Shown here piece after piece: positions 3,001 to 39,267 of a stretch of 64,000 nucleotides of DNA; the stretch's first letter is position 1; each line of letters begins with the position of its first letter. Position numbers and translations under genes: made by a program. This stretch comes from Naegleria lovaniensis (lineage: Eukaryota > Heterolobosea > Eutetramitea > Acrasida > Naegleriidae), in assembly GCF_003324165.1 (NCBI RefSeq), contig NW_025407851.1, positions 310,001 through 374,000 on the forward strand, read 5' to 3'. The notes under the pieces were generated by a model, which was not told the origin of the DNA, searched no databases, and saw only the letters and a program-made list of their open reading frames with translations.

Positions 3001-4131
3001 AATAATCTTTGAATTCTGCAAAATCGATCACGTCTTGATTGAACGTCGAGGGTATTTTTGAAGTTTGCTTCTCAGGAACGTCTACTTCTGAAATTATTGA
3101 TTGTTCCTCTTCATTCAATGGGGCTCCCTTAACAAACATTTTTTTCCATTGACTCACATCTGCAGAAGAAGGAGGTTCTCCCTCTGTCGTTTCTATGTAA
3201 CCTATTTCTTGCATGGCCAGGTCAACCAAATGATCAGTGACCTCTTTGCAGATACTAGTATGTTTTTCTTTCTTTTTTTGAGACCGCTCCTCAAGAAGAA
3301 CCTTGTGTTTCTCAATGAGTTCCTTTTTCTTTTGTTTTCTCTCTTCTCTTTCTTTTTCCATTAATTCTTTCTCCCGTTGCTGTTTTTCTTCAAAATCTTT
3401 TCTTCGCCTCTCAGCATATTGTTTTTCTCTCACTTCTCTATTTTCTTTCATCACTTGTTTCAGTTGTTTAATTTGGTTCAACTCTTTGGCAAGATTTCTC
3501 TCCTCAGCTGATTTTTTCATGAGCTTTTCAAGAAGTACTTCTCTTCTTCTGGCATCCTCCAGATCCTTGAACACTTGCTGTTGCTCCATTAAAACTTTTC
3601 GTCTGCGTTGCTCCTTCTCTTTTCGGCTTGCATTCTCATCTTGTTTCTTTGATTTGATCTTTTTTAAATATGCAGTGGCATCATTGCCAATTGTTTGGTG
3701 AAGCTCTGGAGTATGAAGTGTGTCTTCCTTTGTTGTTGGTTTAACTTCTGCAGTGACAGGTTTTGGTTGCTGGTCAAGACGTTCGAGAGTTTTCTCAAAT
3801 TCTTCAATCCCACCAAGAGCAATATTTCTCATTGTCTTTTTCTTCAACTACACATTCCGATCAAACGCACAAAGCATTAAAAATTCCGAATCATCAGATG
3901 AAATATTTATCTCTTCATCTTTCCGATCGTACATACCTCTTCTTGTCTCTTTTTCATGAGGGTTTGAGTTGTTTTAATTTTCATGTCGATACTCTCTCGT
4001 TGCTTTTTCAACTCCATGTTCCGTTTATGTATCTTTTCATTTTCCTCGTTCCACGTTTGTTTGAAGGTCTTGTTGTCTCGGATGGCATCAAGTCTCGCTT
4101 GACGCATTTGCAACAGCTCTGTATCTTGCAT
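1..4131 (-). CDS. SPEF2: SPEF2/CPC1-like flagellar central-pair protein with adenylate-kinase domain (3' end cut by window)
   Basis: Exon 1 is 4131-3937 (65 codons, phase 0); a GTATGT...TAG intron occupies 3848-3936; exon 2 runs from 3847 past the window edge with no stop in about 1280 codons. The N-terminal part is a long charged coiled coil. Around residue 414 (near 2800-2770) a Walker A motif GKPMSGKT opens an adenylate-kinase-like domain, recognisable by later segments such as GWIIEGFPTN. More coiled coil and a helical C-terminal region follow. This order matches vertebrate SPEF2/KPL2 and Chlamydomonas CPC1, a central-pair projection component of motile axonemes. Known family members carry an N-terminal calponin-homology domain; none is visible here. 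An alternative start in an upstream exon is possible: ATG at 4217-4219 is followed after one A by a GTAAGT donor, and a TTAG acceptor lies just upstream of 4136, giving M-K-K-M-Q-D. Family assignment is confident; the exact start is not. Confidence 0.85.
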
Positions 4132-4204
4132 TTTTTCTAAGAGAGAAAATTGTAATTCTTTTTGGCGGGCAATGTAACGGGAGAGGGGTTGTGTTGCGTC
4201 GACT

Positions 4205-13455: not shown

Positions 13456-16185
13456 ATGGGGAGTGGTGCTTCTAGAACCTCATCCAATCATTTTAAACCT
13501 CATCATCCCAATCACCACCGCCATCACAATGAGGACAATCACTCTCTCTTGATCATGGATAATGACTCAAAGATTGAGCTCGTTATTGAGGGAGTATCAA
13601 GCACTCCTCAGAGTGCTGGAAATGGAACAATCCGAAGTAGTATTGCAACACCACAGCGACATCAACAACAACAACAACAACGCCACTCGCAAGGTCGTCT
13701 CAATAGCGTTTCACGCTCGGTCAGCAGTAGCAGGAGAGGTTCCATCAAACCAAACGGCACCGTTGAAATAAGCAAGTCCATGGATGCTGATTTTCTAGAT
13801 GGATCTGTAAGCGCTCGACGGCAGTCTGAGTATAGATCTCTCTCTGCGAGCAATATAACAAGAGCGTCCCTAGTTACAATGCTAGGACGATCCTTCTCGA
13901 CTCGGCATGCCGGAGATCATGATGAAGATGACTCCTTTATAGGGTCCATGCTTCGAGACAATAGTACACAGTCTCTCAGTGCCTCCTCATTGCTTAAGGG
14001 AGACGATTTATTGAGCTTTCATGGCGACATTTTATTAGATGGAAAACCATTACTGGTTAGTTTAATGATCAACAATATGGATGAATTAGTAATATTTACA
14101 TCAGACTTGAAATCCAAATTTTACGTATATGAAACTTCTTACCAAAGGTTTTTACAACGGTTTTACAGCAATGACGATTCCGCCGCATCACTGTCGGCCC
14201 AATCTCGACACAGAAGAATGCTAGATATGTTAACTTCTGCTTTTAGCTCTCAAAGCTATTCTATTGCTTCTGACTTGGAAGCCTCCTCGTCCTTAAGAAT
14301 GACCCTTACTCTAAGATATCCTCCTGAAGACATTGATAAGACTGTCATTTTCAGGTTATTTGAACATGTTCCTGATTTGACGGATTTATCGAGTCAAATG
14401 GTGAACAGTTCTTTTTGTAAATTGGTAACTTCGTTTTATGCTTATTATCAGGGATTTTCAAAGCATGTCCGAGCTACTTTTCATCGTACCAACATTGTCC
14501 CTAGTTTTGCTGTAAACACAGACTATGGAACTGTAGGACCATTAGAAGAGAGTGGAAACAGTGAGCCCTCAGAAGATGGTGTTGTTCGAATAGAGAAGGA
14601 TGACGAAGACAAGCAGAACCCGACAAAAACACACAACACCTCTACACCTCCTACATCTTCAATCGAACCTCTTACTCCCACAACACAAAATACCACATCA
14701 GATAGAGTTAATCTCATGTCTGTGATACACCCACAAGATTCTATGTTGATGTCCAACCCACAAGACCCTATGACCACCTCCTTGTCACTGCAGCAACCTG
14801 AAGAACCTCCCACCTTACAAGTTCAAGAAGTCATAAAATTCTTGCAACAGATACTACAAAATGAGTCAATCACATGTATAGACAAACCAAAGCTCTTTCT
14901 GGTAATTCAAACAATTGCAAAAACGTTAGATGTTTCAGAGGAGGAGCCAAAACCTGCTCAAGTAAGCCATGACACCGAAGTCAATGCATTCATTTCCACT
15001 TTTGTCAAACCAAGAACAAGAGAAAAAGCTGGATGGAAAACCATTGCAAATTTAATACGAGTAGGAAATATTTTCAAAAGACAACCCATCGAAGGTGCAT
15101 TATCGTTACTTGAAAGTAATCCTGATGTCCAAGAGTGCATGAACAATATTGAACGATATGATTTTGATATTTTTGTTTTGAATGATGCCTCTAAAGGTAA
15201 TCCTCTTTACGTTGTGGTTCATTACTTTTTGAGGAAGTACAACTTGATAGAACATTTTAACATTGACAAAGAAATTTTACACACTTTTTTACGACATGTC
15301 GAACTCAACTATGGTACAAATCCTTTTCACAATCACATTCACGCTGCAGATGTTTTACATACTTTCATGTTCATTCTGGAAACTACAGGAATCATACCCT
15401 TGCTGTCCTTAGAAGAATTATTGGCAGTGATTTTGGCTGCTGCTGTACATGATTTTCAACATCCAGGAACAACAAACCAATTCCAAATTCAGTCATGCTC
15501 TGACCTTGCAATTACGTATAACGACAAATCGGTTCTTGAGAGCCACCACGTAGCATCTTTTTATGACCTGCTAAAGAATGAAAAATATAATATTTTAAAA
15601 GGGCTTACGCCAAAGCAAAGGAGATATGTCAGAGAAATAGTGATTGGTCTGGTAAGCGCTACAGACTTATCTTTTCAACAGGGCTTCATGAATCAAATGC
15701 AAGCAATGATGGACGTAGGAAAGCAAACCTCAGATTTGGAGCAAGAGAAAATTTTCTTTTTAAAGATGTGTCTAAAGGTTGCCGACACTTCTAACACATC
15801 CAAACCTCTATTTTTACATCTGCCTTGGATTAATAGATTGCAACAAGAATTTTTCTTACAAGGTGACAAAGAAAAGGAACGTCAAATGGATGGTAGCCCG
15901 TTTATGGACCGAGAAAAGAGCAACGTTGCTAAATGTCAATATTCTTTTATTGAATATGTTACCTTACCATTAGTAACCTTATTTGTGCAAAAATTTAAGG
16001 AGTGTCATATCATACTGGAATATTCAATTCTTGTAAAGGAGTTTTGGGCTTCTCATATTGGAGTGACTACCCTAGCAGAGGTTGAGCAATTAATACGGAA
16101 AGAGTTTGAAAAAAATGGACGAGAGCCTTCATACAGCCATCTCAATATTTATCCAATCAATCCTATCGCTCCTATGCATAATTAA
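13456..16185 (+). CDS. Class I 3',5'-cyclic-nucleotide phosphodiesterase, probably N-myristoylated
   Basis: Intron-free ORF of 909 aa. It starts MGSGASRTSS, which fits the N-myristoylation pattern (Gly2, Ser6), so the enzyme is probably membrane-attached. Residues 1-600 are mostly Ser/Thr-rich with some structured segments. The catalytic domain covers about 600-890: FHNHIHAADVLHTF (His625 general acid, His629 metal), HDFQHPGTTNQF (His665-Asp666; PROSITE PDE signature HDx2HxGx2N satisfied), the later metal Asp777 in VADTSN, and the purine-clamping Gln828 in VAKCQYSFIEY. All core catalytic residues are therefore present. It should hydrolyse cAMP and/or cGMP to 5'-monophosphates and switch off cyclic-nucleotide signalling; specificity cannot be decided. 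No GAF, UCR or transmembrane segments are visible. Confidence 0.93.
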   Translation: MGSGASRTSSNHFKPHHPNHHRHHNEDNHSLLIMDNDSKIELVIEGVSSTPQSAGNGTIRSSIATPQRHQQQQQQRHSQGRLNSVSRSVSSSRRGSIKPNGTVEISKSMDADFLDGSVSARRQSEYRSLSASNITRASLVTMLGRSFSTRHAGDHDEDDSFIGSMLRDNSTQSLSASSLLKGDDLLSFHGDILLDGKPLLVSLMINNMDELVIFTSDLKSKFYVYETSYQRFLQRFYSNDDSAASLSAQSRHRRMLDMLTSAFSSQSYSIASDLEASSSLRMTLTLRYPPEDIDKTVIFRLFEHVPDLTDLSSQMVNSSFCKLVTSFYAYYQGFSKHVRATFHRTNIVPSFAVNTDYGTVGPLEESGNSEPSEDGVVRIEKDDEDKQNPTKTHNTSTPPTSSIEPLTPTTQNTTSDRVNLMSVIHPQDSMLMSNPQDPMTTSLSLQQPEEPPTLQVQEVIKFLQQILQNESITCIDKPKLFLVIQTIAKTLDVSEEEPKPAQVSHDTEVNAFISTFVKPRTREKAGWKTIANLIRVGNIFKRQPIEGALSLLESNPDVQECMNNIERYDFDIFVLNDASKGNPLYVVVHYFLRKYNLIEHFNIDKEILHTFLRHVELNYGTNPFHNHIHAADVLHTFMFILETTGIIPLLSLEELLAVILAAAVHDFQHPGTTNQFQIQSCSDLAITYNDKSVLESHHVASFYDLLKNEKYNILKGLTPKQRRYVREIVIGLVSATDLSFQQGFMNQMQAMMDVGKQTSDLEQEKIFFLKMCLKVADTSNTSKPLFLHLPWINRLQQEFFLQGDKEKERQMDGSPFMDREKSNVAKCQYSFIEYVTLPLVTLFVQKFKECHIILEYSILVKEFWASHIGVTTLAEVEQLIRKEFEKNGREPSYSHLNIYPINPIAPMHN

Positions 16186-19824: not shown

Positions 19825-22800
19825 TTATTGGAAGGCGCCTCGGTAATTATTGGCATTGGATAAATATTGGGAGTGTTGTGGTTGTGAGGGTGGTTGCTGT
19901 TGTGAAAAGAGTTGCTGCTGTGAATTGGTGGCTTGATTCTTTAAGAAAGAGGAAGAATTGTTGGATGACATTTGTTGGTGAGACATACCGGATGAATAGT
20001 GCTGTTGATGTTGAGATGGATAATTTTGAACGTGTTGCAGTGTTGTTGGACTGCTCATGTTGATCTGTTGATGGAATTGCTGTTGATGTTGTGACAGCTG
20101 TGACGCTTGTTGTTTCATAAATTGTTGAGACGATGGCTGTTGTTGAGACATGGAAGCAAGTAAAGAGCTTCTGTTAGCAGATGCGTTTGTAAAAGAGTCA
20201 GACATTGAAGGTAATTGTCTTTCTGCCATGATTGAGGCTCCAAAATTATTGTACTGTTGTGCACGCATTTGTGTTTGATGTAGCTGTTGTTGTTGTTGAG
20301 GATATGGTTGATGCATATTACTTGCAACATTGGTGTTGCGTTGTTGTGGGAGGTTGCTCTGTGGTGTTTGGATAAATTGTTGCTGAGAGTAAGTGTTGGA
20401 TGTTGGCTGATGAATTTGTTGCTGTTGTGACACCATTTGATAGTTACCAGACGTCACAACACTGCTGGGATTGTGCTGCATAGAAGCATTGGAAACATTT
20501 CGTTGTTGAATGAATTGGGTTGGATTAAATGTTTGCTTCATTTGTTGTGACTGGGCAGAGAGAGGAGTTGCTGGCTGTGGAGGATCACTAAGCTTCCGAG
20601 GAGCCATGTACTTGCTAAAGGAATCCACAAATGTATCTGCGTTGCCCAGAGAACGCTCAGAAAATTGCTCTGTCTGATCATGTCCTGACAGAAACTGCGA
20701 ACTGCGTTGTTGTGAATGTTGAGTTTGTTGATGATGCGACTGAGCTGTCAATAACTGGTTGAATTGAGCTGGATTATTCATTAAATTACTCTGCATCGTT
20801 GATGATTCGATTTGATTTGCATGAATATTTGTTGACAAAGATGACTGAAGTGGTTGTGAGTAAGAAGGAGTAGCAGTTGGAGGGCTTAGCAATAGCTCAC
20901 GGAATGACACTGGAGCAGTATATTGTTCTGTTCTGGATGATGAAACGTTGGTATTTGTGACTGGTTGTTGCTCAGACAAATTATGGAATGCATTTAGCAT
21001 GCTCGTTTCTTGCATTGAAGCAAACTTTTGCTGTTGAGATAATGTACCAGTAATTTGATAGTTTGACATGCTTGTGGGTTGATTGACTTGTTGAGAATAT
21101 GATTGTTGAGGATGCACATTTAGCAACAGACTTTGGAAGCTGTTACTCCTAGATCTAATGGATTCTTGCGATTGCAGATTCGTGTCGAATGTTGTCGTAG
21201 TTTGATTTTGTTTAAGTAGCATATTGGGCATAAATTGTTCAACATGCTGCGATTCTTGCCGAATTGTCTGCTGTTGTTGTTGTGAGTGAGGTGCTTGTTG
21301 CCTTACGTTAGGCGTAGTAGCTTGATCCATATCCAAAATTCTCTCGCTTAATTGTGGTTCCAATTGTTGCAACTGAGGTGTCATGTGGTGTGATTGTTGC
21401 TGAGCTTGTTGGTGTGATGTCTTGGAAGCAAAACTACTGCTAGTATCAGTGTTAGTTCGTTGTATTGAAGCCATCTCTGAAGCACGAACCGGTTGGTTTT
21501 CGAAAGGAGGTTCATAAGGAATTTCTTTGCTTGTTTTTCTCTTCTTATTCGATGGAGAAAAATCATCAACAGTACCACTAACTGTTAAATGTTGTTCAGG
21601 AGCTTCTAATGTAATATTGGAGCCATCCTCGAGGGTCTTGGTGTTGACATCACCTGAGGACGACGCTGCTGTCACAGATAGCGATGGTTTCGATGAGTCT
21701 TCAGGTTTTTTCTTTGGGGTGGGTTTAGGTGGATCTACGAGCTTAGTGGTGTGATGATGAACAGCAACGTGCTCTTCCTCTTTCGAAAGCGAATTCTTCC
21801 TTTTAAGAGGTGTTTTGTTTTGAACAGTTTCATCCTTTTTGTTTTTCAATAAGCCAATTCCCTTCTTGGGGTTATGATCCACCTGTGTTTTTCTGGCCAT
21901 CATCATGAGAGAGCTTTCAGCTTTGGCTGTTTTGGATTTTCGTTCCTTAGTTGGTGTTGCTGTGGATTGAGCCAAAGGTTTGTCTGACATGTTTGTAATG
22001 TAAGTGGAGGAGGTAGCAGCAGAAACAAGAGGAACCACTGGTGGATGTGACGATGTTGTTATGGTAGCTGCTGGCATTGTTGATGGAGTGGAAGCCGATG
22101 AGGACGAGGCGGGAGTGCTTGAGGGAATGACATGGTGTTGTTCGTTAGGAGTCATGGAAGACGCTGCTGTCACAGATAATGATGTGTTTGCTGCTGATGC
22201 TGGAGGAGTTTGAGGCAAAAATGAAGAATTTCGTGGTGATGTCTCTGCTTCAGGTTTTGGAGTTCCCTTCTTGTGGTGCTCAACTGGTTTTGAGTCCACA
22301 ATAGGAGGCTCCTTCATATTTGAGATGGCAATTCCTAGTTGAGCAAACTCTTCTTGTAGAGTGACCGTTGTTGGTACCTGATTCATAGAGTTGTTGATTC
22401 CATTGTCTGTCATGACAGAGTCATCTTGTTGTGTCATTGACCTCTCTTCTAAGGTGGTTGAAGGAACGTTTTCTGGCTCCTTCAATATTGCAGATTTGTC
22501 TTGTGGATTATGTTCTGTTGTGTGTGATTTTTCCATCTTTGAAGGTTCACTTGAGCTTTGATGACTCTTCTTTGTTTTTTTCTTTTCAGTATTTTGTGGA
22601 ATGGTTATCGCCGCACTATTGTCAACCCTAGCACTATTTAAAGCAATATCGTTTTTGGAACTTATTGGATCAATATTTGCCCTCGTTGGTGTACTGCTCT
22701 GCATGGAAGAAACAGCTTCAGGACGATTGTTCATTTGGGTATGACTCGCACTGAGGGTGGTTGGTGGCATGGCAGTAGTATTAGTCACATCTTTTGTTTC

Positions 22801-24493
22801 TGCTCTCTTGTTGTGTTTAGAGGAAGATGATTTTTTTGCTTCACCTTGGTGATTCGTAGTGACTGCTTGTTTTGGTTGTTTGGGATGAACCGAACTTGAC
22901 TCTTTCTTGTTCTTTTTGTGTTTTTTAGATACTTCATTGTGGAGCGGAGTTGATTGTGTAGAGGCAGATGCAATTTTTGAATGTCTTGGATTGCTTGGGG
23001 AGGAGTGTAATTTTCTTGCTGCCTCTACCATGCTTCCTGTGGTGCTCTTTATAGCTTCTCTATGACGTGGTTTTGGAGCCTTAAACTCGCCACCTGTGCC
23101 AGTCACCTCTTTGGAGGGTGTGCTTGGTGGTTTTTGTGGAATCTTGGTACGTTTTCGTAACTCTCCAATAGCTTTCCAATTTTTGTTCACAACTTCAGGA
23201 TTACAGTCATGAGGATTGTACTGAAATTGATGTGCCTCAAATCTAACTGTGACACAGGCATTCATGTAGAGTGAAATTGCTGGAAAATATGCTCCAAACA
23301 TAATATCCGAAAATGCTATTCCTTGGTATTTTCCATTTTTAAAGAAAACTATTTTGCTTCCAATAACTGGCTTTTCATCCAAAGTTGCAGTGAATTGTTT
23401 GTACTGTTGGCCGTCATCACCAAAAAATGCAGACTCAATATACTTAATAGGTGGAGTTTCAACTTTGGGAATTTCAATGTAGCAACCAATGACATCTCCA
23501 GCTTCCCCAAAAGGTTCTCCGTATGGAATTCCTTTCGATTTATAATATACCTTCCCATCTTTGCTACCATACCCATACGATAATTTATCAAATCCACATG
23601 GACCTTTGTCAAACGCTCCTTTCAAACACCATCCTACTCGATAATGAGGTTTTCTTGCATAGTCAGGCACAGAATTATTTTCCATATTGTTTTCAATTTT
23701 CACTTCGTAGTAATATGCTCCACTTTCTAAACAATGAGTTGCATGAATCATGCAATAACCCTATTTTGATTTTGTTCAAATGAAGTGATAATTTGCAAAA
23801 TATAACAGTTCCATTGTCATATAATTATACGTGATATTTGACTGATCTTGCATCGAATAAAACACTTACTGATACTCCGATGGAGCATTTATCATCTTTA
23901 ATTTTGATGGGAAAATCTTGTTTCTTTTCTTGAAATGTAACTGGTGTTGTTGGATTTTGATCTTCACCTCTATTGTGACAAGGTAGAAAATGGGAATTAA
24001 AGCGAAAATGAAAAGTATTAATTTCCAGAATTCTAAATTACAATCATTGAACATACATGTGCTTGTACTTTCTAATCACAACATCTTCTCCATCTCGTTC
24101 TTCTACACTCCAATCGGAATCGTCTACATTTTCAATAATTAAAGGCAAACGTTTGAATACATCACACAATGAGATTAAAAATTATTTCAAAATTAGTTTC
24201 GGTTTAAATTTAAACATACCATCATCACTCGATGATGATGAAGAACTAGAATCGTCATCATCATCATCTCTATCACTATCTGATTCATCGGAATGAGTAG
24301 TGCCTTTACTTCGGCTATTGGTTGGTCGTTTTGGTTTTGTTGGAGCATGAACATGTTGGAAATCTGTCATTTCTTCTTCTTCACTTTCTTCATATTCTTC
24401 TTCCGATGCTGATGATGGTAAATGTTGCTCATCATCTTCGTCAATCACGACTTTATTCCGCCTCTGTAACGGAGGTGTATGCAAAAGATTCAT
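19825..24493 (-). CDS. ASH2: ASH2-type SPRY protein (COMPASS H3K4 methyltransferase subunit) with very long Gln-rich tail
   Basis: Four exons: 24493-24220, 24123-24057, 23969-23870, 23760-19825; phases 1, 2, 0 all fit and give 1458 aa. The N-terminus is acidic/Ser-rich (MNLLHTPPLQRRN, then D/E runs). The SPRY domain spans roughly residues 95-330: KIKDDKCSIGVSGYCMIHAT, GAYYYEVKI, YRVGWCLKGAF, GFDKLSYGYGSKDGKVYYKS, GDVIGCYIEIP, IVFFKNGKYQGIAFSDI and YFPAISLY. These match ASH2L segment by segment, including the long loop before IVFFKNG. ASH2 pairs with RbBP5 to activate MLL/Set1 methyltransferases on chromatin. The remaining about 1100 residues are disordered, first Lys/Ser-rich then Gln-rich. 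The PHD-like and winged-helix domains that precede SPRY in animal ASH2L are absent. Confidence 0.85.
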
Positions 24494-25100: not shown

Positions 25101-28100
25101 ATGGCATCCAACGAAAGCAAGAAGAGAAAACAAGATGAGGAATATTCATCATCATGTGCACAAGAAAATGATTCCTCCATGTTATCCTATGAAATTCCAT
25201 CCGAAGAGAAGCAAACCAGCGAATTGATCGATCAAGTAGCAGAGTCCTTTCATCAATTGACTTTGCAACAACAGACCGAAACCATGATCAAGCGTTTAGT
25301 GGACCAATTCCAAAATGGTTCATCATCCTCCAGCAGCACTCCGCTCTCATCTTCCACGGCCAATGATTTTTCATTTGTGGACTCATCGGCATCCAAGCTG
25401 AATCTTGTTGCTCTCGAACAAATGCAAACCGATGAATTGGTTGTGTTGAAAGTAGGGTCTCGTTTCTTTCAAACCACATTAAAGACCTTGTTGGGTCAGA
25501 GAGGTTCCAATGTTCAATCTAAAAAGATTGTCATTAGCGGACAAGTTGCTTCGGGACCAAAACCAAAGAAACGAGGTCCTCCCGGAGAAGGCGACGAAGA
25601 GGAAGAAGGAGGTGATGAAGAAGAGGAAGGAGGTGATGGAGAAGAGGAAGAGATGCAAGATGATAAAGAACAAGATGGAAATGCCGCCAAAGATAGCTCC
25701 TCAGCATCAGGTGCTTCTCTCGAATATGTTTGTGCTCAAGACAATTTATTCAAGGTCATGTTTGATAGCGGTTTTGGTATTGAGAGAGAGGAAAACAAAT
25801 CAGCCATCTCTTTCGAGGATAGAAATCCAGAGTATTTTGAATACATTTTGGAACATTTGAGACAAGGAGGAAGAGTAAAATCATTGGGTATTGAAAAGTT
25901 GAACATTACAGAGCTTGAAAATATTTTGGAAGAGAGTAGATTTTTCCTTACCGAGAAATTGTCAGAATACATTTTGTTCTTGCTCGACAAGTATCACAAG
26001 TACGACTCTTCATTGACTAATTATGATGAAGTTGGAATGAATATGGATGATGATCAGCAAGATTTTGGAGTGACCTCTTCTATTCCTGTTGAAAAAGTCA
26101 AGCAATACATTAAGGAAACCAATGAAAAGGTCAACCAATCCAAGCTCAATGTTTCGACACTTTCTCAAAAATTGGTTGAAAGTTACAAGAACTTTTTGGT
26201 TGGTAATGATGTTGAGAGTGACTTGAGTGTTCGTGTCGATGTCGCTGGCCAAGTTTTTACCATTCCATTCACTGCATTGAGAAAGTATGAAAACTTTTTA
26301 ATTACCAAGTACATGTTATCTGGTAATTTCAAATTGAATCAAGATGGATGTATCTTTATTGATAGAAGTCCTAAACTCTTCAATTTTATTCATGGATATA
26401 TTATTTCTGGAGGAAAGTTCTATCACTTCCCCAAGTATTTATCAAATGAGAAGAAACTCCAACTCAAGAAGGAAGCTGAATTCTATGGAATGAATACCTT
26501 GATTCAAGAATACTTGGATCCATTGCGTTATCCAGTAGAGTTATTGGGAAAGGACAATATTAAACTCAAAGAGCAAGAGGACAAGTTGAGAGAACTGTTT
26601 GCAAAGAGAAGAGATTCTCCACTCTTGGACGATCCATATCTCATGTTAACTCCATTGTTCAGCAAATTAGATGAAATCAATTTGAAAGAGAGGTTTAGAG
26701 TTGATTTTGGCAAGTGTCCAAAACTGTTGGATCTCAGTGACAAGACGAAATATTCAAGACATGTTTCTCCTCCTCGTCTTGTGAATAATGTTCAAGCATT
26801 CAAATTGAATTGGCATAGATTCACTCAGGGAGTTTTGGAAGGTCTAGATTGGAAGGGAGTTTTTGCTGCAGGTGGTGGAGGTATGTGTGAATTTTTTTTG
26901 AAGATTGTCTTATTCTACAAATGTAATGATTTTTAACATCATTTCACTTTAAAGTTTTGGGATGTCTCTTAAAGGATGGTGGTGACCCTTCCGCTCAAAC
27001 TCCTGTCTCTACAATTTTCCCCATGTCAAGTGAGGAACGTGCAAAGAACAACACTTCAAGATCCATCTCCACCATTGATGATGACGATGACGAAAATGAA
27101 GCAAGTGATTTCGGCTTTTGGAGAAGATTCACTAAAAAGGATACAACCACTCAACACAATGATTCTATTATCAAATATCCAGTTTCTGCATTCCACAATT
27201 TGGATAGTATTGGAAATAGCTCAGTATTTTCAAAGTTCAGATATGGCAACACCTATGAGGGTTATGATACAAGAAGATCAAACAAGCAAAAGCAAGTAGA
27301 TATAAAGTCTACTGTTGCAGATACTTCCAACGCCAGAGTGATTCCAGAGCCCAACATTCCAACCAGTTTCAAAAAGAGTGACATTGATTTATTTTTGTAT
27401 GCCATGACTGAAAAAGAAGCTGAAGAGAAAATACGTCATATTTACCAAACTGTAAAGAAGAACATGGCTCGTTTATTATTGCCTGACACCAATACTGAAA
27501 AGTTGTCATCCTCTGGATATCACTACTACAGAAACAGGAATCAAAACCAAGAACAAAAGAAGTTATTCGAAGATGGAATCTTGAAAACAACAAATACTGT
27601 TGTGAATGATGACATTTTGGTTGTGAGAACCAAATACGCTGTCACATTTTATGGTTACAGAATTAGACCAATTCAAGTTGTTTTGAGAATTTACAAATCT
27701 CCTGCTGAAGTCTTACTTGGATTTGATATCGACTGTGCATGCATTGGTTATGATGGTAAGACTGTATGGAGTGCTCCAAGAGCAAGAAGAGCTCTTGCCT
27801 TCAATACGAACTTGGTCGATGTTGATCGACAATCCACTACTTATGAGTACAGACTGTACAAGTATGCAAAGAGAGGATTTTCTGTCTCCGTACCTGGATT
27901 TGATTCTAACAAAGTCCAAAATCAATTATTACAATATCCAAGAAGATTCCCTTTCACTTCCATGGAATACTTGATGCATGGATTGGCACGTATTCTTGCA
28001 ATGGACTTGGCATGTCAATCTAAAAATCCAAAGCACGTGTTGGGCCCCTATGATGCTCCCAATTCCAACAAGGCACAAGAAAAGGAAGAACGTAAAGCTC

Positions 28101-29116
28101 TTATTTTAGTTGGAGAGGTTAATGTGAAATCAGACTATATGGATTTATCCATCATTAAGAGTGATCGATATCCTCCATCATATTTGTTTGATCAACTTTC
28201 AAAGGTACACAACATGGTTGCTATGATCAATATGAAAGAAGAGAAGACTGAGGGCGATGATAATAATAACACCAACCAGTCTGGAAGAGGCCAAGGATTA
28301 TCACATTGGCGTCGAAGTTATCGAAAGCGTCTTGATGAAAGAAAAGGATTCAGAGAGAGAGAAGCCATCACCCTTGATTCAAGATTAACTGCACTCAAAT
28401 TACAACCACCAGTTCAAGAAAGAAAACCAGACTGGAAACCATTCTTCATTTATTCTTTGAACGATATTGAAATGATTATTTGCAATGAAAAACAAGAATC
28501 AAGAGTGAGTAAGAACATTGAATGGATCACAGTTGATCCTGGTACACAATCTATTGGTAGTTTCCATCCTACCTCTCTCAACTTTTATAGAGATGCCTAC
28601 ACTTCCATTCCATTCAACAAGTTGCCTCTCTTGAAAGAATCAACCTCAAGAACTGCTTGGTATAGAGCTATGAGCCAACAACCTCCTCCTCATGTTATTC
28701 AAGAGTCGGAAAAGACGGCAGAAGAACGAAAGAAGAACCCTTATTACAATTACTACAATAGAAAAAATAATAATAACGAAACGGAGCAAACAGAAGACAG
28801 ATACAAGTTGGTCACTTTGAAAAATGTTTATGGTACTTTGGAACAAATTTGGTTTGAAGCTTATCCACCAGAAATTTCCAACAAGATTGAGCAAATGTTT
28901 AGAGGATTCGTCACATATGGTAATCCTATTGAATTTTGGATTTCCAACACTGAAAAGATTGACTTTGATTCATGGCGTCACATGAATGATACCACTCACG
29001 CTTCAGAACCAGGCAAAAGTTTCCGATTGCATCGTGATACCTTTGATTATTCATATCCTGGCGAAGAGGTTGCCAAGACTGCCATCACCAGACTCAGTTT
29101 TCCTTCCTTCTATTAA
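25101..29116 (+). CDS. Tandem BTB/T1 protein with nucleotidyltransferase-like domain, paralog A
   Basis: Two exons, 25101-26880 and 26955-29116 (intron 74 nt, G|GTATGT...AAAG), giving 1313 aa. A Ser/Gln-rich N-terminus leads to BTB/T1 domain 1 (about residues 113-255: VVLKVGSRFFQTTLKTLL, then FEDRNPEYFEYILEHLRQGG), split by an acidic insert of about 70 residues. BTB domain 2 is at about 374-470 (VRVDVAGQVFTIPFTALRKY, FIDRSPKLFNFIHGYI). The second half has AAGGGVLGCLL, which spans the intron, and after about 140 residues KSDIDLFLYAMTEKEAEEKI, then RIRPIQVVLRIYKSPAEVLL and VDVDRQSTTYEYRLYKYAKR. A Gly-rich hGG motif followed by DhDh suggests a polymerase-beta-type nucleotidyltransferase fold; this is inference. 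Paralog B lies at 35801-39267. Function unknown; KCTD-like BTB domains usually oligomerise or recruit cullin-3. Confidence 0.75.
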
Positions 29117-29244
29117 GGCGTTGTTGAGCAATTGCATTAATCCCAATTTCGTTCATAAAATAAAAATTCAAAAAAAATTTGGCAATTTAAAATTCTTGCA
29201 CAAAAATTTCTGAACGTTCTCAAAGTAGTATCGAACAACATATC

Positions 29245-32200
29245 ATGTCATCACAATTCCGACAATGCGTAGAATGTGGTGCTCCGATGGGTTCATCAAA
29301 AGTGTGCAGTTATTGCGGCTTCGGAAGTAAACACAACAAAACCACATACTATCTTGAAATTGGAGACCAAGAGGGAGAAGATAATAATACATTTACATTT
29401 CAAACGGGCCAACAAAATGCTGGTCATGTCAGTCGAGATATTTTCACCTTTACTGAATTTGGAGGAACACAATCGTTGGATGAACAATGCGAGCAAAATA
29501 GTGGATATGCTTTTATATTTTGTTTTCAGAGAGTGTTGCAATGTCAGGTGGACTTTTTAGTGGAACGAATGAATTTTCCACCAATTTTGAGGAAGGCCAT
29601 TGCTGATCTTTGGTTGGATTTTGTGGATGAAGTTAAATTGTATGTGTTGAAGTATTTTTGAAATTCTTTTGAAAAACATTTGACAATTGAAAATAATTAA
29701 TTTTACAATAATAATATTATTTAACATATTTTGGACTTCATGGATTGACGTTAATTTCACAATGTAGCAAAAAGCCACTCCTTCGTAGCAAGGTCAATAA
29801 GAAACAATTACATGTCAACGTTAGAAACACTCTCCACAGATTTGTTAAAGTCAATGCAAGAGCGCTTCGAAGATTATATTTACAAAAAGAATTGAAATTT
29901 GTTGGATTTTTACTACCGAAACTTCAACCCTATGATACTTTGGTGTTTATTTACTTGGCATGTGCAACCATTGGACATCCAGTCATGCTTCCAATTTTGA
30001 GACATTGGGCCATGACTGGAACCATTCCATATCGAAAAGTGTGTACGGAACTCTTTTCAAATGATCCTCGATTTAGAAAATTTAGTAGTAATACCTTTTC
30101 ATTTAACATGTACACTGAAGATAATATGGCTTCGAATGTGAGTAGTAGTTATTCTAGCATTGTGGTGTTTTAAATCACTGACTCACTCTAACAATGTTTT
30201 TTTTTTGATGCTTCATTGATGTCATTATTTCATGAATTATTTCATGAATGAAAATAGTTTCGAGAAGGAGTCATGCCAGACTCGAGAGAATTATGGAAAC
30301 GTGTGAAAAAACTCTCTCAACGAAAACAGACGCAATCTGCTCCATCTCAAAACGAACAAACAGAAGAGCACAAAGACATGTTCAAACAAGAAGGATCTCC
30401 TGCAACACCCTTCTCACGATACATTCCCATTCCAGATCTTAATTGTGAAATCATGCTTCGACCATTCTTTCCATTATTCATTCCTCAAATTCCACAACAA
30501 GAATATGATATTCTGATCACTTACACGTGTCGACTCATTCAGGCGTTTACAAAAATTTCTCAACCTTCCATTTATCACGACTGTGAACCTTCAGTAACGA
30601 CCTTACCATTTTGGAAAAATCCACTCACTGAAAGCCACATGTCTCCATGCATGTTCGTCATGTGTTTTGTGTGTATGACTTTGAAATTGTGTTTTGGACT
30701 CAATCGACAATACGATCCTCGCACCAATAATTCCCTAATTCACAATCCATCGGCCATAACGATGGCCACTGGAACTCATCCCAAATGGGCTCAATACATG
30801 ATTCGTATGAATGAACAATTTTCACGTCAACATGATCGAGGTGGAATTCTCATTGATCACCAGCCCATTCGATTGGCATGCCCCGACGATCGAATGTTAT
30901 TATCGACCTTTCTCGAGATGACCATTCATGAAAAGACTTTCCATCACACTCTCCTGAAAGGTTCTCTGCATCGACAATTATTTATGGGAAATAATTTACA
31001 GGCAGGTATTAAGGCAAATACCATGTTTTTGAATGAGATGAATATTCAAGGTTTACAGCCATTATTGAATTCACTACTGAGAGAAGAGTCATTGAGTGAT
31101 ATATATATGAATGGAAACACAACAGGAAGGCACACACAACTTGCATTTCCCACACTCAAAGATATGGAAATGAGAGCCCGACATTATCATCTCTTATTTG
31201 ATGTGAATGGAAATGTTCATGAAGAAGAAGAGGCATCAGATGTAAGGACACTCTTTCCTTCTTCTGCAACTTCTTTTATTGACATGTCCTTCTTGTTGCA
31301 GAGCATGAGTTGGTTCATGGGAGTGGATCCACAGAGTTTAATATCTTCCTATAGTAGCGGCAGTGGCAGTGGTGGATCGATCTATGGAACGAGTAGTCAT
31401 GGTTTTTATGGTGGCAATGATCGGTGGTGGAAGCATGGTTCGCAACAAGATGTTACTTCACCGGCAATGACCTTCCAAACTCTGTTGTCGAATATCATTG
31501 TTATTTTGGAGAATGTATTACTTGGAGTTGGAACGAGCCAGAATCAACAGGGAAGGAAGAATGATGGTACTAGTAGTCCTGGTGATCATGGCCATCTTTC
31601 AACAATGAACAATGACCCCTCATCGACTTGCTTAATGATGGAATTAGGAATTTCAAATATTTCCAAATGGAGTAGTATACGAAAGCACATGCAACACAAT
31701 GGAGTGATGTATCAACTCGAAAGACTCAATTCTCAACTCTTGAATGAAGGTAGAAAAGAATTATGGGAATTATGTTTGCCATCGTATCAACTCTTGTATC
31801 CGCAAGTATCATTCCGAAGGAGTGGTGTAGCAGTGCGAGTTCTTCATTAGAATTCTCACATCTGAGAAGAAGGAACAAGAAGAATAGAAATGATCCATCA
31901 ATGGATTTACAAGATGATAATGATGAAAAAACTCTTGGGGATGTAATCATGGAGAAGGATCAAGATGAATATGGGGATGATGATGAATGGTTAGAGGATG
32001 TTTCATCAACATTCAAGGATGGAGATCGGAATCGATTCATGTTGTCTCTTCCATTTATTCAATTATTGGAACGTCTCATGGTTCAGCAACAACAACACAA
32101 CGAATTTGATGAATACATGGATGGAGTGCTGGATCGACACTATTACAGGTGTGAGGGATCGTCCGTGCATGAAATTCTCAATACCAAGTCCATACAAAAG

Positions 32201-32254
32201 ACGGTCCTAATGATGCGTTCCACTCTACAAGCACATCATCCTATTATTGAATAA
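29245..32254 (+). CDS. TAF1B: RNA polymerase I TFIIB-like factor (TAF1B/Rrn7)
   Basis: Exons 29245-29639, 29768-30137 and 30258 onward. The N-terminus is a zinc ribbon with Cys8, Cys11, Cys21 and Cys24 (QCVECG...VCSYCG). A B-linker-like region leads to a first cyclin-like fold (QCQVDFLVERM, LRKAIADLWLDFVDEV), continuing across intron 1, with PYDTLVFIYLACATIG and LRHWAMTGTIPY, the segments I associate with TAF1B/Rrn7. These proteins take the place of TFIIB in rRNA gene transcription by Pol I in the nucleolus. The 3' end is unresolved: the frame of exon 3 stops at 31850 after SYQLLYPQVSF, while a second coding-like frame (31763-32254; acidic, then FMLSLPFIQLLERL) runs on. Candidate last introns are GTAGAA (31749) to CATTAG (31849), or GTATCA (31805) to an AAG about 70 nt later. 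Confidence 0.7.
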
Positions 32255-32355
32255 TCGAAGTCTGAGAGTGGTGATCATCAAAAGCATCTGGATTCAGTGT
32301 TGTAAAATTTTGGCGGGGTGTGGAACACGAAAAACATCGAGCCCACAAAAAAACA

Positions 32356-35300
32356 ATGAAAAAACGAAAGACCATCAATGCCCGATCGATCAAACAAGTC
32401 CTAGAGAAACTACAACAGAGGTATAAGGTGTTTTCATTTGATGATTTTGATCGGAAATTGGAATCGGATAGTGTTGAGAGGGATTTATTGTCGATGGAGA
32501 GACTTGATGCTCAGTTTCATGTAAGTGGGTGTTGGAAGCATTACAGTTACTAATATGAAGTGAACTAAATGAATATTATTACGAATTCTGATCATACAAT
32601 AATTATCTAATAATAATTGGTTTGATTCCATTGAATGATCCTTTTCCGATTCACAGAAATACGACATTGTCAGTGCAATACTATCTCAAATAGAGAATGT
32701 TTTTACAAAGGATGTCATACAAAAAATTAATCAACAAGGAGAAGATTCTCTACTCTTTGACATCATGACAGGCAGCGTAAATTTTGGAGAACAATTAACA
32801 AGCTCACCCAAATTCGAGCATTTATTGCTACAAGTATTAGCTGAAGTTGACAGAGCCATTATTGAATTTAAGGAAAATGGATGGACAAAAGAACCAAAAT
32901 CTAGTCACACTTCCACTCGAGATACTACCTCTCCTTCTGCCGAGTCTGAGTTTTACTGGGAAAATTTTGTCAACCAAAAATCACACATGTTTGAAAGCAG
33001 CGATCGACGAAAGGAGCTTGCTCTAACCATTGGAAACAAACTCTTGGAAATTAACACACGAGTGGAGGCAGCCAAAGAACTTCACAAAATGTTTGCAGCT
33101 GATATTGTGTCGAATGAACATTGGAATCTTGTGCTAGAAAATGTCACCCTAGGATTATCGGATGAGAATGACGAAGTACGAAATTTATGCGTAGCCATGT
33201 ACAAAAATTTCTTCAAAGTCTCACCACCAGAAGCTACTGCAGAAATTCATATTAATTTACTGAATCATCTCATAGAAAGAACAAGCCAATATCAGGAATT
33301 ATCTACACTTCAATTGGAAGCTATAGAAAGTAATCATGGACTTTTGGATTCTTTTAAAGTGTTAATCCAATTTAACTATGAAGTTCCAAAGAATTGGCTT
33401 TGCTTCTTTGGCGACACCTCCAAAACATTGCTAGAGAAAACATTTGTACTTCTCTCCAATCGTGCAGCTTACTATTTTTTAAGCTATCTTGACACAGAGA
33501 ATGAATGGTTTGGCAGCTGGATGAAGGAGTTCAAAATTCGGAAAAAGGTTATCAAATTAATACCAAAATTAGAATTTTTGAGCCGAGTTTACGAAGGTCT
33601 TTCATCAACCTCCAAGGATCAGAAAACAATGACCTATTTTGTGTTAACTCATAGCTCGGCCATATGCTCTCGCCTTCTTCAGAACAAGGATTGCAAATCC
33701 ATTATTGACTACAAGTTTATGATCCAAAAATTATGTGAATCCTTTTTGACAGCAATTAGGGAACAAGAGGAGGCTGTTATTGACTCAATGCATTATCGGA
33801 GACTCTTGTCAATAACCAAGCAGGCCTTAATTAATATGAATTCTGTTTATTTCGACGTGGATTATATTGCATTTTTGATGTCATCCTTTGTGTCCTCGTT
33901 TGAGATTAACATGTTCACAGAGCAGTTTATTACTGCTATATGTGAAATTTGCAATAGTGCACTCGTTAACCATGCTCAGCAAGTGAGCTCTAATGAATGT
34001 ATTATGGATAGGTTGTTTACTTTTCTCACTGAGATTTTTTCGTCAGAATCTTTGCCACACACTATCAAGCTTCATGGATTAGATATATTTAAGTCTATCA
34101 CTAAGAACGAGAATTTATATGACAAGATCGAGTCTACCCACATGTTGGATTTAGTCATTGAACAAAAGAAAAATTTATATGACAAGGTCATGCACATATT
34201 ATTGCACATGACACACAAGACGAGAGGATTAGTCCTTCTTTCAAAATATGAAATTTTAGACGAATGTTTGGATCATCTCTTCTCAAGGTAAGTGAATGGA
34301 TTGATGGTCTTACAATATATCATTAATTATTACGACAATATAATACACACACCATATTGACAGCTCTCAGCTATGCCTTCCTTATCACTGCTACACGCTC
34401 TCTCAAGTTGGATGCGTTCGAACATCATATACAGATATTGCCATCAATTACCTAACAGACCTCATTGAAAAAGAAAAATTAATTTATGATCAGTTTGACT
34501 GGACACCTGAAACTGAGAGAAAAGATTTAGATCAATTCAGATATGACATTACTCAAATATTACTGCTTTCTCCTTTCTCCTATGAGATCTCAAGTATTGT
34601 TGATGAGATTTGGTCATTTGTAAAACAAGACTATGAATGTGACTGTGTGGTAAGTATTTGTTCTATGCACGCTTTTAAGCCTAAAATTATTATCATGTGC
34701 AATACCACAGTTTGGATTACAATTATTTTCTAGCCTTATTAACAACTTAAATGCAGCAGCATCTCTTTACAGCAGCAATTTATGGAAGGAACTGTTGAAA
34801 ATTTCCTTCTCAGAGGACACCTCCATCATTGATGAACCTTCATACATACGGAACTCGATTGTTCAATTTTGTACCACGGTTGGAGGTAAATCAGAACGAA
34901 GAGAACAACAGCTATTCCCCTTCTCTACATGTAAAGCATCGGTAACATTTGATGGGACAGACTTTGAAGGCGATCCAACTTTAACAGAAGTGTTGCAAAG
35001 CCATTCAATTCTCGAGTACAGATCTTTCATTACAAATACATGCTTAGTTTCGGTTACAGTTCCGTCCAAAGACCTACATGAATGCCTCAATCAAAATATT
35101 GGATCATTTGGATTGAAATATCTAGCTTCCTATTTTAAATCTGTATATGGAGAGGAAAGACATTTTGATGCATCTCAAAGCTGGTCAAAAATTCTGGCCA
35201 CTCTTCTTTTCGGAAACGACGTAGAAAAAGTCAAAATATTCCTTGCCAATAATCCATTTCTTGACTTGATTAGCAATCATCAAAATTTTATTCTAGAAAT

Positions 35301-35700
35301 TACTTCACATATTGAAACCATATTATGTGAAGAATTTCCTATTCAGTACAACTCATTTGTCATGTGTGGATTAAGCATTTCCAATATTATCACTCGATGG
35401 TTGAGACAATTATTTTTCAACTTTTTAGATTTGAGATGTATTTTTCAAATACTGGCTCTTTTGAAAGAATTTGGGTTGAACGCATTGGTCATTGTTTGTG
35501 TTCTGTTATTGAAACATCAGGCATCGTTTGATAATTGTCAAGAATACAAATTGAAAGCGTGGACCATGCATATTTTCGAACCGCTTCAAGTCGATGGTGA
35601 GTGGTTTAATGCTCTCATGGATCCTTCTTCAGAATTCTTCAGGTTAAAAAACAAGCACAAGGGCTCTTTGGTTTCATTTGAAAATTCGAACAATTATTAA
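32356..35700 (+). CDS. TBC1D32: TBC1D32/BROMI-like ciliary protein
   Basis: Four exons: 32356-32520, 32657-34287, 34364-34649, 34711-35700, joined in phases 0, 2, 0; product 1023 aa. The frame is open upstream but the first ATG is 32356 (MKKRKTINARS). The protein is almost entirely helical, ARM-like (FYWENFVNQKSHMFESSDRR, NEHWNLVLENVTLGLSDEND, VRNLCVAMYKNFFKV), and closes with a degenerate TBC-like domain containing ISNIITRWLRQLFFNFLDLR. Helical repeats plus a C-terminal TBC fold with WLxQxFLNYLD-type sequence is what I recall for broad-minded/TBC1D32. That protein works with CDK20/CCRK in cilium assembly and length control. The Rab-GAP catalytic Arg and Gln fingers are not apparent, as in other BROMI proteins. 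A flagellar role fits a Naegleria-like amoeboflagellate. Confidence 0.7.
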
Positions 35701-35800
35701 ATGAGATTGTCTGGTGTTCTCGAATGTACATGCAACTGCATGCTCTTACAAACTTTCTTGCAGCAACAACGAACAAAGAGAGGAAAAAGCACAAAAAAAA

Positions 35801-38800
35801 ATGCTTCCTTCACCAACTCTTCAAGTGAAACGCAAGCGTGAAGAGAACTCTCACCCGAGCAGCAATGATCATCAAGAAGAAGGGCATTCCGAAGAACCAG
35901 CTCATCTTCTCATGAGAGAACAACTCGAACGATTCCGAATTGAAAAGTTAATGAAATTAAAAACAGAAAAGGAGCGTTATGAAGCAAGAAAGAAGGAGCT
36001 TGAAATTTTGGAAAAGTTCATGTACAGCAGCAGTAGTGGTAGTAATGATGATGAAACTCGACCACAGGAAGTCTCACATGAGAAGCAACAACAGGATCAT
36101 GAGCCACAAGATCAAACCATTGATCCAATATTAGATGATATTCTGTCTTCGCAGAAAAATTTAGTTCACATTCACGTGGGTGGAAAGAATTTTGTGACCA
36201 CCCTTCAAACGCTCACAAAGAGAGAAAATATGATCAAAGTCATGTTGAATTCAGATTTTAAAATTGACAAGGATGAAAATGGTGCAATTCTTTTCAAAGA
36301 TCGAAATCCTGATTACTTTCCTCACATCTTGGAACACTTGCGTACAGGTATGTGCACACAATAAGTGATTTCATTGTAATATTTAACATTGATTTTTTAA
36401 AACCATTCAACACTTCCAAAGGCTCAACAACACATATTGGTTTGTGGGAAGAACATGGTGCTGAATCGATCCAACATTTGAAAAATTTACTGGAAGAATC
36501 TGATTTCTTTGGAACAACAAAATTGAGCGAAAGAATTTGCCAACTGCTCACAGAATTTGGAGAACAGCCAGAAGGAATGCAAGAGGACGATGACGACGAT
36601 GTTCAAGAGGTAACCATGCCTACAGTTTTCAACGACACGATGGTTAGTGAAAATCAGCATTTAGCAGACGATGAATGGATTTCAAAATTCAACCAATTGA
36701 CCGTTCAAGAAAAGTCTCGAGTTGAAAAGTATTTCAATGAACATGAATCGCTCTTAGAGCAAGAAAAGCAAATAGTTTTAGAAAAAGAGAGCAACTTACA
36801 ACCTACCTTTATTACTTTCAATGTAAGAGGTGTCAAGTTTTCAATCAACATTGAAAAACTTGTGAAACATTCAGAAAGTATTTTCATTGACATGCTTCGC
36901 AAAATGGACAAGACTTCCTCCATCTTTCTCGACCGTGATCCTGACGTGTATGGAGTCATATTTAATTATTTAGAATCTGGAAACACCTCATGCATTCCCA
37001 AAGAGCTTCCTAAACAGAAACAAATATATAAGGAGGCAAAGGAACTCAGATTAAGAGAATTGACTGAATATTTTGACCCATTTCGATATCCTATTGAGCT
37101 ACTTGGAGAAAAGCTTATTAAGATGAAGCAAGAAGAGGATTTACTACGAAATTTATATGTTGTAGATAGAGACAACAGCATGCTTGATGATCCATATTTA
37201 CATCTAGTTAGCGTTTTTGGAACTGATCATCAACTTCGAGATTTTTCCAGATATGATCCTCCCAAAGGAATTGGTTTACTCTTTGACTTTGAGGATCCAA
37301 ACGAAGCAAGTGCTTTTTCAAGCAAGAAAAACTCAATTCCTTCAGTACCTAAATTGTGTGAATCACGACAAGATTTCTTTCGACAATTTAATGCCTTCAC
37401 CTATGGCTTGTTCAAAGATATGGATTGGAATAATTGTTTTGTTGCAGGCGGAAGTGTATTGGCAGCAGCACTCCAAGTTGAGCAAATCAAGTTGCGTGAT
37501 CATTTCAAGAATCCCACACATTCCAATACAGATCTAGATGAACCCAACGAAAACTTGCTTTACAATTGGGACAATGACGATGGTGATGTTGTTATCGAGC
37601 ATGAGCATAGCAAAGATGAAAAAGTGTTGAATAGTGATGATGAATATGTTACTGATTCAGAGGGAGAAAGTGAAAACGAATCAGACTATGATTCAAATGT
37701 CGAGTTAGTGAAACCAGAAATGTTTGACTGTCGTTTGGCTCGATATTACACATCTTCCAATACATGGAAAAACAGTGATATTGACCTTTTTTTCTATGGA
37801 CTCTCTGAAGAACAAGCAGAGAACAAGATTATTGAAATTTTTAACTTGTTTAAGAAGAATTTAAAGAAAATTCCCCATCAATTTTACAAGGTACCCTCTT
37901 TGGGTAAATTTACCATTGACGACATTGTCACATTCAGAACTGAACATGCTATCACTTTTAGATTTAACAATCCCATTCGACCCGTTCAGATCATTTTACG
38001 TATCTACAAGAATCCAGCTGAAATATTAATGGGCTTCGATGTACCAAGTTGTTGCTTTGGTTTTGATGGAAATCAATTGTATTGTTTACCACGAGCAAAG
38101 GAAGCTATAAGAATGAGATGTAATTGGGTCGATCCAGACCGACAATCCACAACGTATGTACTGATTACTTGAATTCAAGGATTCTTAACCATGCAATTCA
38201 AACATCATTCTGTTCAATTTGTAATATTATTTTAATATTTACATTACTCCAAAAATAGGTATGAAGTGAGACTTGTGAAATATGCAATGAGAGGTTTTAG
38301 GATTGGTGTTCCTGGTTTTTCTTTCAAAAAAGTAAGAGACCCAATATTTGTTCGACCAGACAAGTTACGAGTGTTCTGTGCTAGAAATTCGAAAGCTGGA
38401 ATAGCCAAATTCACAGGACTTGCCAAGATCTTGATTATGAGATTGACGTATCGATGTCCCTTTGTTCATTCCATATTGCAGAGGGCCATGACAAGAGCAC
38501 AAGTTTCCAAAGCAAGGGATATTCTCAAACCGAATGAAAATCATGACTATGCTCAAGTGTCCTTTGTAAGAACGAGACGTGAACGAGCAATTAGTATTTC
38601 ACGTGATTGGTCAAAACGAGAAGCTCGTTTACAATACGTGATACATGAACTACACAAACAACCCTTCTTTGTTCAAACGTTGAATGATATTGATGGAATT
38701 TTGAACATCACACATTGTAAGGAATATGCTCTGCCTCAAAAAATCAAATGGATCACCATAGAGCCAGGTCGACAATATGTTGGTAGTTTCCACCCAAGCA

Positions 38801-39267
38801 CCATTAATTTCTTTGCAGATGCTTATTCAAAAGCAGCTACTTGTGTCTGGAAGAGCAAATATGTATGGGAATGGCGTAAAGACAACTCAACATATGAAAA
38901 ACAACAATTTGATGTTGATACGAGTTGTGAACTCGAAAGACGGTTTAAAAAGTTTTTTAAGGAAGAAACATTGTCAAAAAAGCATTCTCCAACTCGATAC
39001 TACCGCATCAATGAGTATCAGTATGTTGACTTGTTGAAAATGGTACTTGTTGACAAATCTGGACCAGTGGAAAAGAAAAAAGCTGTACAGCGAAGACGAA
39101 CAGCACGTAAATTGGTGAAAAAGAGCGTTCGGACCGAACACAAACATCGTTCCCTTAGCAAAGAACCACAGGAAAATGAAATTGTGGAAGTTTCCAGTGA
39201 TGACAGTGATGTCGAACACTTTCCAGAATTAACACAAAACAAGCTCAGTGGTGTTTTCTTTTTTTAA
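35801..39267 (+). CDS. Tandem BTB/T1 protein with nucleotidyltransferase-like domain, paralog B
   Basis: Exons 35801-36347, 36422-38153, 38259-39267 (phases 1 and 2), 1095 aa. The start MLPSPTLQVKRK follows an A-rich leader. A charged coiled coil precedes BTB/T1 domain 1 (about 120-215: LVHIHVGGKNFVTTLQTL, then FKDRNPDYFPHILEHLRTG, interrupted by intron 1). BTB domain 2 is at about 308-405 (ITFNVRGVKFSINIEKLV, FLDRDPDVYGVIFNYLESG). Then VAGGSVLAAALQVEQ (about 524), an acidic spacer of about 100 residues, NSDIDLFFYGLSEEQAENKI (about 633), PIRPVQIILRIYKNPAEIL and VDPDRQSTTYEVRLVKYAMR. The conserved WITIEPGRQYVGSFHPSTIN has a counterpart in paralog A (WITVDPGTQSIGSFHP). The GGS...DID pattern is complete here, whereas paralog A has GGG. 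The C-terminus is basic then acidic. Function unknown. Confidence 0.75.

Follow-up and report, generated by a model that had tools for sequence, protein, structure and literature searches.

Two Naegleria lovaniensis genes joining tandem BTB domains to a putative nucleotidyltransferase-fold core with relatives beside ADP-ribose and ubiquitin-system domains

The window analysed here, a stretch of 64,000 nucleotides of the Naegleria lovaniensis genome (contig NW_025407851.1, positions 310,001 to 374,000, numbered below from its first letter), carries on its + strand two related genes, paralog A (25101..29116; exons 25101-26880 and 26955-29116; 1313 aa) and paralog B (35801..39267; exons 35801-36347, 36422-38153 and 38259-39267; 1095 aa), whose features all lie on the same strand. 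Both are predicted gene models with splice sites chosen by eye at GT..AG borders preserving the frame, and judged from their sequence they look like genuine multi-exon genes. Each matches the Pfam BTB_2 profile twice above cut-off, A both times in its first exon and B once each in exons 1 and 2, which bears out the initial annotation of two KCTD-like BTB domains per protein. The first BTB domain of A starts at about 25437 and is interrupted by an acidic low-complexity insert, and the second lies at 26229..26504 (residues 377-468; E 2.3e-15, two stretches); those of B lie at 36164..36349, running on into exon 2 (E 2.3e-9), and at 36811..37041 (E 1.1e-7). At the C-terminus of both proteins stands a WWE domain, overlooked by the initial annotation. 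It matches PF02825 in B (38860..39060; E 3.4e-4, 21.4 bits against a cut-off of 21.1); the Pfam scan gave no PF02825 match in A, in which a degenerate WWE-like copy (28853..29002, residues 1227-1276) was seen only by a family WWE profile (independent E-value 6.6e-8) seeded with five segments, from the relatives P0002, P0004, P0005 and P0012 and from B, with A excluded. The same Pfam scan matched no PARP domain in either protein.

The core of both proteins begins with a glycine motif, AGGG in A (26868..26879), directly after the GGG of which comes the intron 26881-26954, and AGGS in B (37444..37455). It is followed by SDIDLF (27377..27394 in A, 37774..37791 in B) after a spacer at 26955..27376 in A and an acidic one at 37456..37773 in B, which, counted from the second G to the first D, amount to 143 and 108 residues and agree with the distance of 100-140 given previously. 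Next comes a block containing an invariant Q and D (RPIQVVLRIYKSPAEVLLGFD at 27665..27727 in A, RPVQIILRIYKNPAEILMGFD at 37978..38040 in B), in which the RIYK-type motifs described earlier (RPIQVVLRIYKSPAE and RPVQIILRIYKNPAE) begin at 27665 and 37978, and then RQSTTYE (27827..27847 in A; 38140..38265 in B, split by the intron 38154-38258), so that the GG, SDID, RIYK-type and RQSTTYE blocks of the initial annotation are all located in both paralogs. Farther on lies GSFHP, part of a W..PG.Q..GSFHP block (28556..28570 in A, 38782..38796 in B).

Two protein searches yielded 110 relatives, the first contributing 56 at E <= 0.001 and the second, seeded with a PARP-fused protein that is itself counted, 67. 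Because these 56 homologs are joined by at least 13 other loci in the same genome, the motif pattern of A and B is not a chance one. The precomputed label PF26128 is carried by 56/56 proteins of the first search, 66/67 of the second and 109/110 overall, P0107 being the one without it. The relatives come, among other named sources, from Willaertia, Acrasis and Naegleria fowleri, from chytrids and other fungi, a ciliate and algae, from Anaeramoeba and from a virus. In several Heterolobosea the core has tandem KCTD-type BTB domains on one side and a WWE domain on the other. The union of tandem BTB domains with such a core, of which the initial annotation knew no described case, is therefore not unique to A and B, and the core, having a Pfam number already, is not an undiscovered domain. 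A prokaryote genome scan with a single peptide pattern matched 134 stretches, none of them a relative, one scan of IMG/VR gave a single confirmed locus, and seven phage records matched P0018 solely in the part before the core.

The motifs are conserved to a high degree across this range. In an alignment of 112 cores (the 110 relatives, A and B; P0044 numbering, with counts over the sequences that have a residue at the position), the two glycines of GG are kept in 102/102 and 101/103 sequences, the aspartates of DxD (D309 and D311) in 106/107 each, the glutamine of RP.Q..LR in 111/111, and F377 and D378 in 112/112, the second D of FDxD being replaced by P in B and in three loci of the same genome (L033, L034 and L035). 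The spacer between GG and DID, measured in 101 sequences, has a median of 27 residues and a minimum of 12, with 30 residues or fewer in 60 sequences, 31-60 in 20 and more than 60 in 21. As 60 of the 101 relatives have 12-30 residues here, the long spacer of A and B is, on this comparison, an insertion, so the long acidic spacer, which the initial annotation had named as a weakness of its nucleotidyltransferase idea, is no argument against that idea.

Structure prediction and a fold search had been suggested for the core, and AlphaFold2 models were obtained for two BTB-containing relatives, P0044 (BTB plus core, from a 31-sequence alignment) and P0012. The core of the P0044 model has a predicted confidence (pLDDT) mostly above 90 and runs from a strand (271-274) through a helix on GG to a strand carrying DID (310-315) and a helix (319-336), with later strands at 340-344, 348-353 and 360-367, the last of which contains Q361; the order of elements is the same in P0012. 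This strand/helix/strand order is the one expected of polymerase-beta-type enzymes, and going by strand order, the strand of the third carboxylate would hold Q361. Weak-match Pfam scans took in 101 of the 110 relatives; of the nine set aside because of their length, three were scanned apart. These scans gave weak Polbeta matches in 2/31 members of alignment A1, 2/30 of A3 and 3/53 of A4 (A1 and A3 overlap), NTP_transf_2 in P0091 and P0092, and NTP_transf_6 in one member. All four matches with positions (P0001 632-693, P0094 249-291, P0092 287-333 and P0091 301-333) start one or two residues upstream of SDID. In hhalign comparisons with bacterial CCA-adding enzyme/poly(A) polymerase and GlnD heads the motifs fell in register, GG..DxD doing so with the CCA heads; a search with E. 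coli Cca listed close copies alone and was unusable as a diverse profile. BTB proteins filled the lists of the PDB fold searches. By title, the 50 Foldseek matches listed for the two models are BTB-type proteins or designs matched likewise, and the VIA matches listed lie on BTB stretches except for two on the TRIP12 WWE domain; no nucleotidyltransferase is among these BTB-dominated matches, which neither supports nor excludes the fold. In BFVD, the P0044 model matched proteins of giant viruses (pithoviruses, Fadolivirus, Bodo saltans virus, pandoraviruses and mimivirus relatives), including two that the database names as a CCA-adding enzyme (rank 22, E 1.4e-10) and a tRNA nucleotidyltransferase/poly(A) polymerase (rank 29, E 1.4e-9), and these matches may rest in part on BTB or ankyrin regions. 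On the strength of its motif, predicted secondary structure and weak in-register Pfam matches, the core very probably has a polymerase-beta-type nucleotidyltransferase fold.

Among the domains found beside the core, PARP, PBZ, F-box and ubiquitin point to ADP-ribose and ubiquitin biology, and these fusions, like the WWE domain, had escaped the initial annotation. Precomputed labels place a PARP domain in 5/56 relatives of the first search, 10/67 of the second and 11 of the 110 in total, and over the same 110 relatives they record BTB_2 in 17, ankyrin in 15, WWE and TPR in four each and PBZ in two. Local Pfam scans add PARP_reg (P0018, P0021, P0059, P0063 and P0064), WGR (P0018, P0063 and P0064), BRCT (P0064), ubiquitin (P0059) and PBZ (P0075 and P0091). 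In P0059 one chain holds PARP_reg, PARP and a pair of ubiquitin-like domains along with the core, and P0076 bears PF00627 and PF22562, which we take to be UBA domains. The H, Y and E motif patterns of PARP enzymes were found in 8/11 of the fused proteins; the H part is absent from P0017 and P0068, in which the domain begins near the N-terminus, and the E pattern from P0077. That the PARP-core fusions are gene-prediction artefacts was considered and judged unlikely because they recur in several sources and clades.

The same genome (30.69 Mb in 97 contigs) holds relatives of A and B in at least 13 other loci (L033-L045). A full-length family profile matched nine of them (L033-L041) over BTB and core stretches, GG and DxD being seen in 8/9, all but L036, and four more (L042-L045) have a divergent compact core in which GG, DxD, Q and FD are kept in 4/4; L046 and L047 are short fragments. 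The family WWE profile matched L034-L038, and L033 weakly. L040 (C29) and L041 (C87, a contig of 21.8 kb) are nearly identical paralogs, and the assembly may here contain a haplotype copy. In L042 (G000:C46:74000-80500, 1789-4167) an F-box above cut-off is fused to the divergent compact core (GGSLLHTLTGCGCGDIDIF), so that within one genome the core is joined to two different types of cullin-ligase adaptor, and L044 (G000:C26:468000-474000) has an F-box-like match below cut-off with a divergent compact core. In an approximate FastTree tree of 121 cores, a single clade (local support 0.988) takes in A and B, the majority of the Naegleria paralogs, and the proteins of Acrasis and Willaertia, with L039-L041 branching just outside it (0.971 with neighbours). 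Within the tree A groups with P0001 (0.997) and with the group of P0002 (N. fowleri) and L038; B groups with L035 and next with L033, L034 and L036; and P0009 (N. lovaniensis C9374_007401) is the sister of L033. A and B thus sit in different subclades, and for that reason the idea that they are recent tandem duplicates was rejected. PARP-fused proteins are scattered over several places in the tree, which suggests that the association of PARP with the core is old or repeated.

Directly observed are the domain architecture, the conservation of the motifs and the recurrent fusion with ADP-ribose and ubiquitin-system domains. As for what they mean, our preferred reading, to which we give a probability of roughly 40%, is that the family of A and B, spread over eukaryotes and giant viruses, is a nucleotidyltransferase-fold module placed where ADP-ribosylation meets ubiquitin-ligase adaptors. 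The BTB domains would oligomerise and could recruit cullin-3; a WWE domain that is intact would dock onto ADP-ribosylated partners; and the BTB domains, or F-box, ankyrin or PARP partners in their place, would bring the module to ADP-ribosylated or ubiquitin-linked targets. There the core would bind a nucleotide and a metal through GG and DxD and transfer a nucleotidyl group to, or from, the target. A link of the family to ADP-ribose is probable, and putative catalysis by the core is slightly favoured; the ADP-ribosylated or ubiquitin-linked substrate is a putative one, and binding of cullin-3 is a tentative proposal. Because relatives of the core are widespread and sometimes fused to enzymes that write ADP-ribose, the middle domain may be part of an unstudied branch of ADP-ribose/ubiquitin signalling.

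Several findings weigh against this reading. The apparent third-carboxylate position is Gln in 111/111 sequences, on a predicted strand, with the invariant D378 (112/112) nearby. The nucleotidyltransferase Pfam matches are far below cut-off, the best E per family being 0.027-0.17; the hhalign scores against the three bacterial targets were not significant, 7, 33 and 12 of 200 column shuffles scoring as high or higher; NCBIfam gave no nucleotidyltransferase match in 30 members, and a PDB sequence profile search with alignment A3 gave nothing. In further PDB sequence searches, P0092 likewise gave nothing and P0046 one unrelated weak match. The polymerase-beta-type assignment of the initial annotation is supported in part, by the conserved hGG..DhDh, the short spacing of compact members, the strand/helix/strand order of the model and the weak Pfam matches. 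One of the genomic copies, L036 (G000:C17:472000-477500), breaks off inside the GG motif and is without the segment that carries DID, Q and FD, so that it looks broken or deleted there. The WWE domain is of a type usually reading ADP-ribose marks. In the alignment column that we take to be that of its adenine-contacting glutamine, this residue is present in 6/15 aligned WWE segments and missing in A, B and seven others. A contact between a WWE glutamine and adenine is described in PMC11269756. Since both paralogs are without this glutamine, ADP-ribose reading by A and B themselves appears doubtful and may have been lost.

The apparent Gln in place of the third carboxylate makes a nucleotidyltransferase fold without transferase activity the main rival, a tentative but serious one, in which the core would be a nucleotide- or ADP-ribose-binding reader or scaffold and the BTB domains would oligomerise. 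The constancy of that Gln, at a position taken from predicted strands, and the tolerance of long GG-DID inserts (more than 60 residues in 21/101) are in its favour, but the near-invariance of GG, both DxD aspartates and D378 over 112 sequences from fungi, amoebae, a ciliate, algae and a virus exceeds what scaffolding usually needs, and even the divergent compact F-box subfamily retains its motifs at all four loci. That host-virus conflict is the main business of the family, with giant viruses and their protist hosts exchanging the module to modify or counter defence based on ADP-ribose or ubiquitin, is unlikely. The giant-virus fold matches, the viral protein P0106 and the multi-copy expansion in Naegleria would all fit such a role, but PARP-fused relatives occur in cellular organisms, the one IMG/VR scan confirmed a single locus, and the fold matches may partly reflect BTB or ankyrin regions; a host-virus role is in any case compatible with the module at the meeting of ADP-ribosylation and ubiquitin-ligase adaptors. 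Decidedly unlikely, too, is a new chemistry common to protists, fungi and giant viruses, in which the fold would dispense with the usual third carboxylate, conjugates of ADP-ribose (ADP-ribosylated ubiquitin, perhaps) would donate or accept a nucleotidyl or phosphoribosyl group, and BTB or F-box domains would see to delivery; the PARP-ubiquitin-ubiquitin-core chain of P0059 is the clearest hint toward it. There is a slim chance that the core acts on RNA as a CCA-adding or poly(A)/oligo(U) polymerase-like nucleotidyltransferase, as the two viral structural matches annotated in this way and the GG..DxD register with CCA heads might suggest, but the profile score is non-significant and no RNA-binding domain stood out among the partners (BTB, F-box, ankyrin, TPR, PARP, WWE, PBZ and ubiquitin, with C2H2-type finger matches in 6/30 members of A3). 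An equally slight prospect is that the core has another fold and resembles GG/DID enzymes by chance, for which the lack of a significant profile, PDB-sequence or PDB-fold match among those listed might speak, but the compact spacing, the placement of the motifs on strand, helix and strand, their invariance and the weak matches to three nucleotidyltransferase families argue otherwise.

Comparison with known systems sets the family apart in several respects. Like polymerase-beta-type nucleotidyltransferases (CCA-adding enzymes, poly(A) polymerase, Polbeta/NTP_transf_2), it has hGG..DhDh, a similar spacing in compact members and the strand-helix-strand arrangement, but it differs in the seeming Gln, the non-significant profile similarity and the fusions to BTB, WWE and PARP. 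The KCTD proteins (BTB_2; KCTD10/13/17 and others) share the BTB sequence by Pfam and, in homologs, the predicted fold, whereas A and B have two BTB domains, a large enzyme-like core and a WWE domain. The E3 ligases RNF146, HUWE1, TRIP12 and Deltex carry WWE domains, according to PMC11269756, and A and B resemble them in pairing WWE with ubiquitin-system domains; unlike them, A and B have BTB in place of RING or HECT and a nucleotidyltransferase-like core, and have lost the glutamine of the WWE pocket. P0018, P0063 and P0064 carry the core behind a half resembling PARP1-type enzymes (WGR-PARP_reg-PARP), whereas A and B are without a PARP domain match. In the literature covered, outside which most subscription journals lie, no paper was found under the number PF26128, on a nucleotidyltransferase or polymerase beta joined with PARP or another ADP-ribosyltransferase, or on Naegleria BTB-WWE proteins, and the words nucleotidyl and BTB are absent from the main text of a 2010 study of PARP evolution (PMC2964712). 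Three points we believe to be new: the nucleotidyltransferase assignment together with the explanation of the spacer, the combination of BTB, core and WWE in one protein, and the repeated union of the core with ADP-ribose and ubiquitin domains. The core is a conserved enzyme-like domain, with no described function found in this literature, that recurs beside PARP, WWE, PBZ, BTB, F-box and ubiquitin. Should it prove to be an active nucleotidyltransferase, ADP-ribose signalling would gain a further modifying step, and its presence in giant viruses would link it to host-virus conflict.

The span from 25101 to 39267 given by the initial annotation includes further genes between A and B (29245-35700), and other genes of the window are those for a cyclic-nucleotide phosphodiesterase (13456-16185, + strand), a protein kinase (7377-9146, - strand), a SPRY protein (19825-23751, - strand) and a BROMI-like protein (32765-34291, + strand). 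Beyond the core, many relatives have a block W....PG.Q..GSFHP, whose Q, G, S, F and P are conserved at 90% or more in alignments A2 and A4, and in P0059 and P0063 a cysteine cluster (C.C..C) stands immediately upstream of it. Matches to the PARP catalytic domain number 18 in the genome, being exon pieces and not 18 genes, and this Naegleria possibly has an expanded ADP-ribosylation system; one of the matches shares an open frame with a WWE domain (C14:15359-16918). A separate locus, L049 (310-2226; G000:C19 near 656900), gave no match in a PDB sequence search. Its protein combines a head domain of the poly(A)-polymerase type (PF01743, E 4.5e-8) with what by eye resemble several PBZ-like zinc fingers, Pfam giving one weak match (E 0.078), and the locus is flanked by two PARP loci (C19:652045 and C19:660600).

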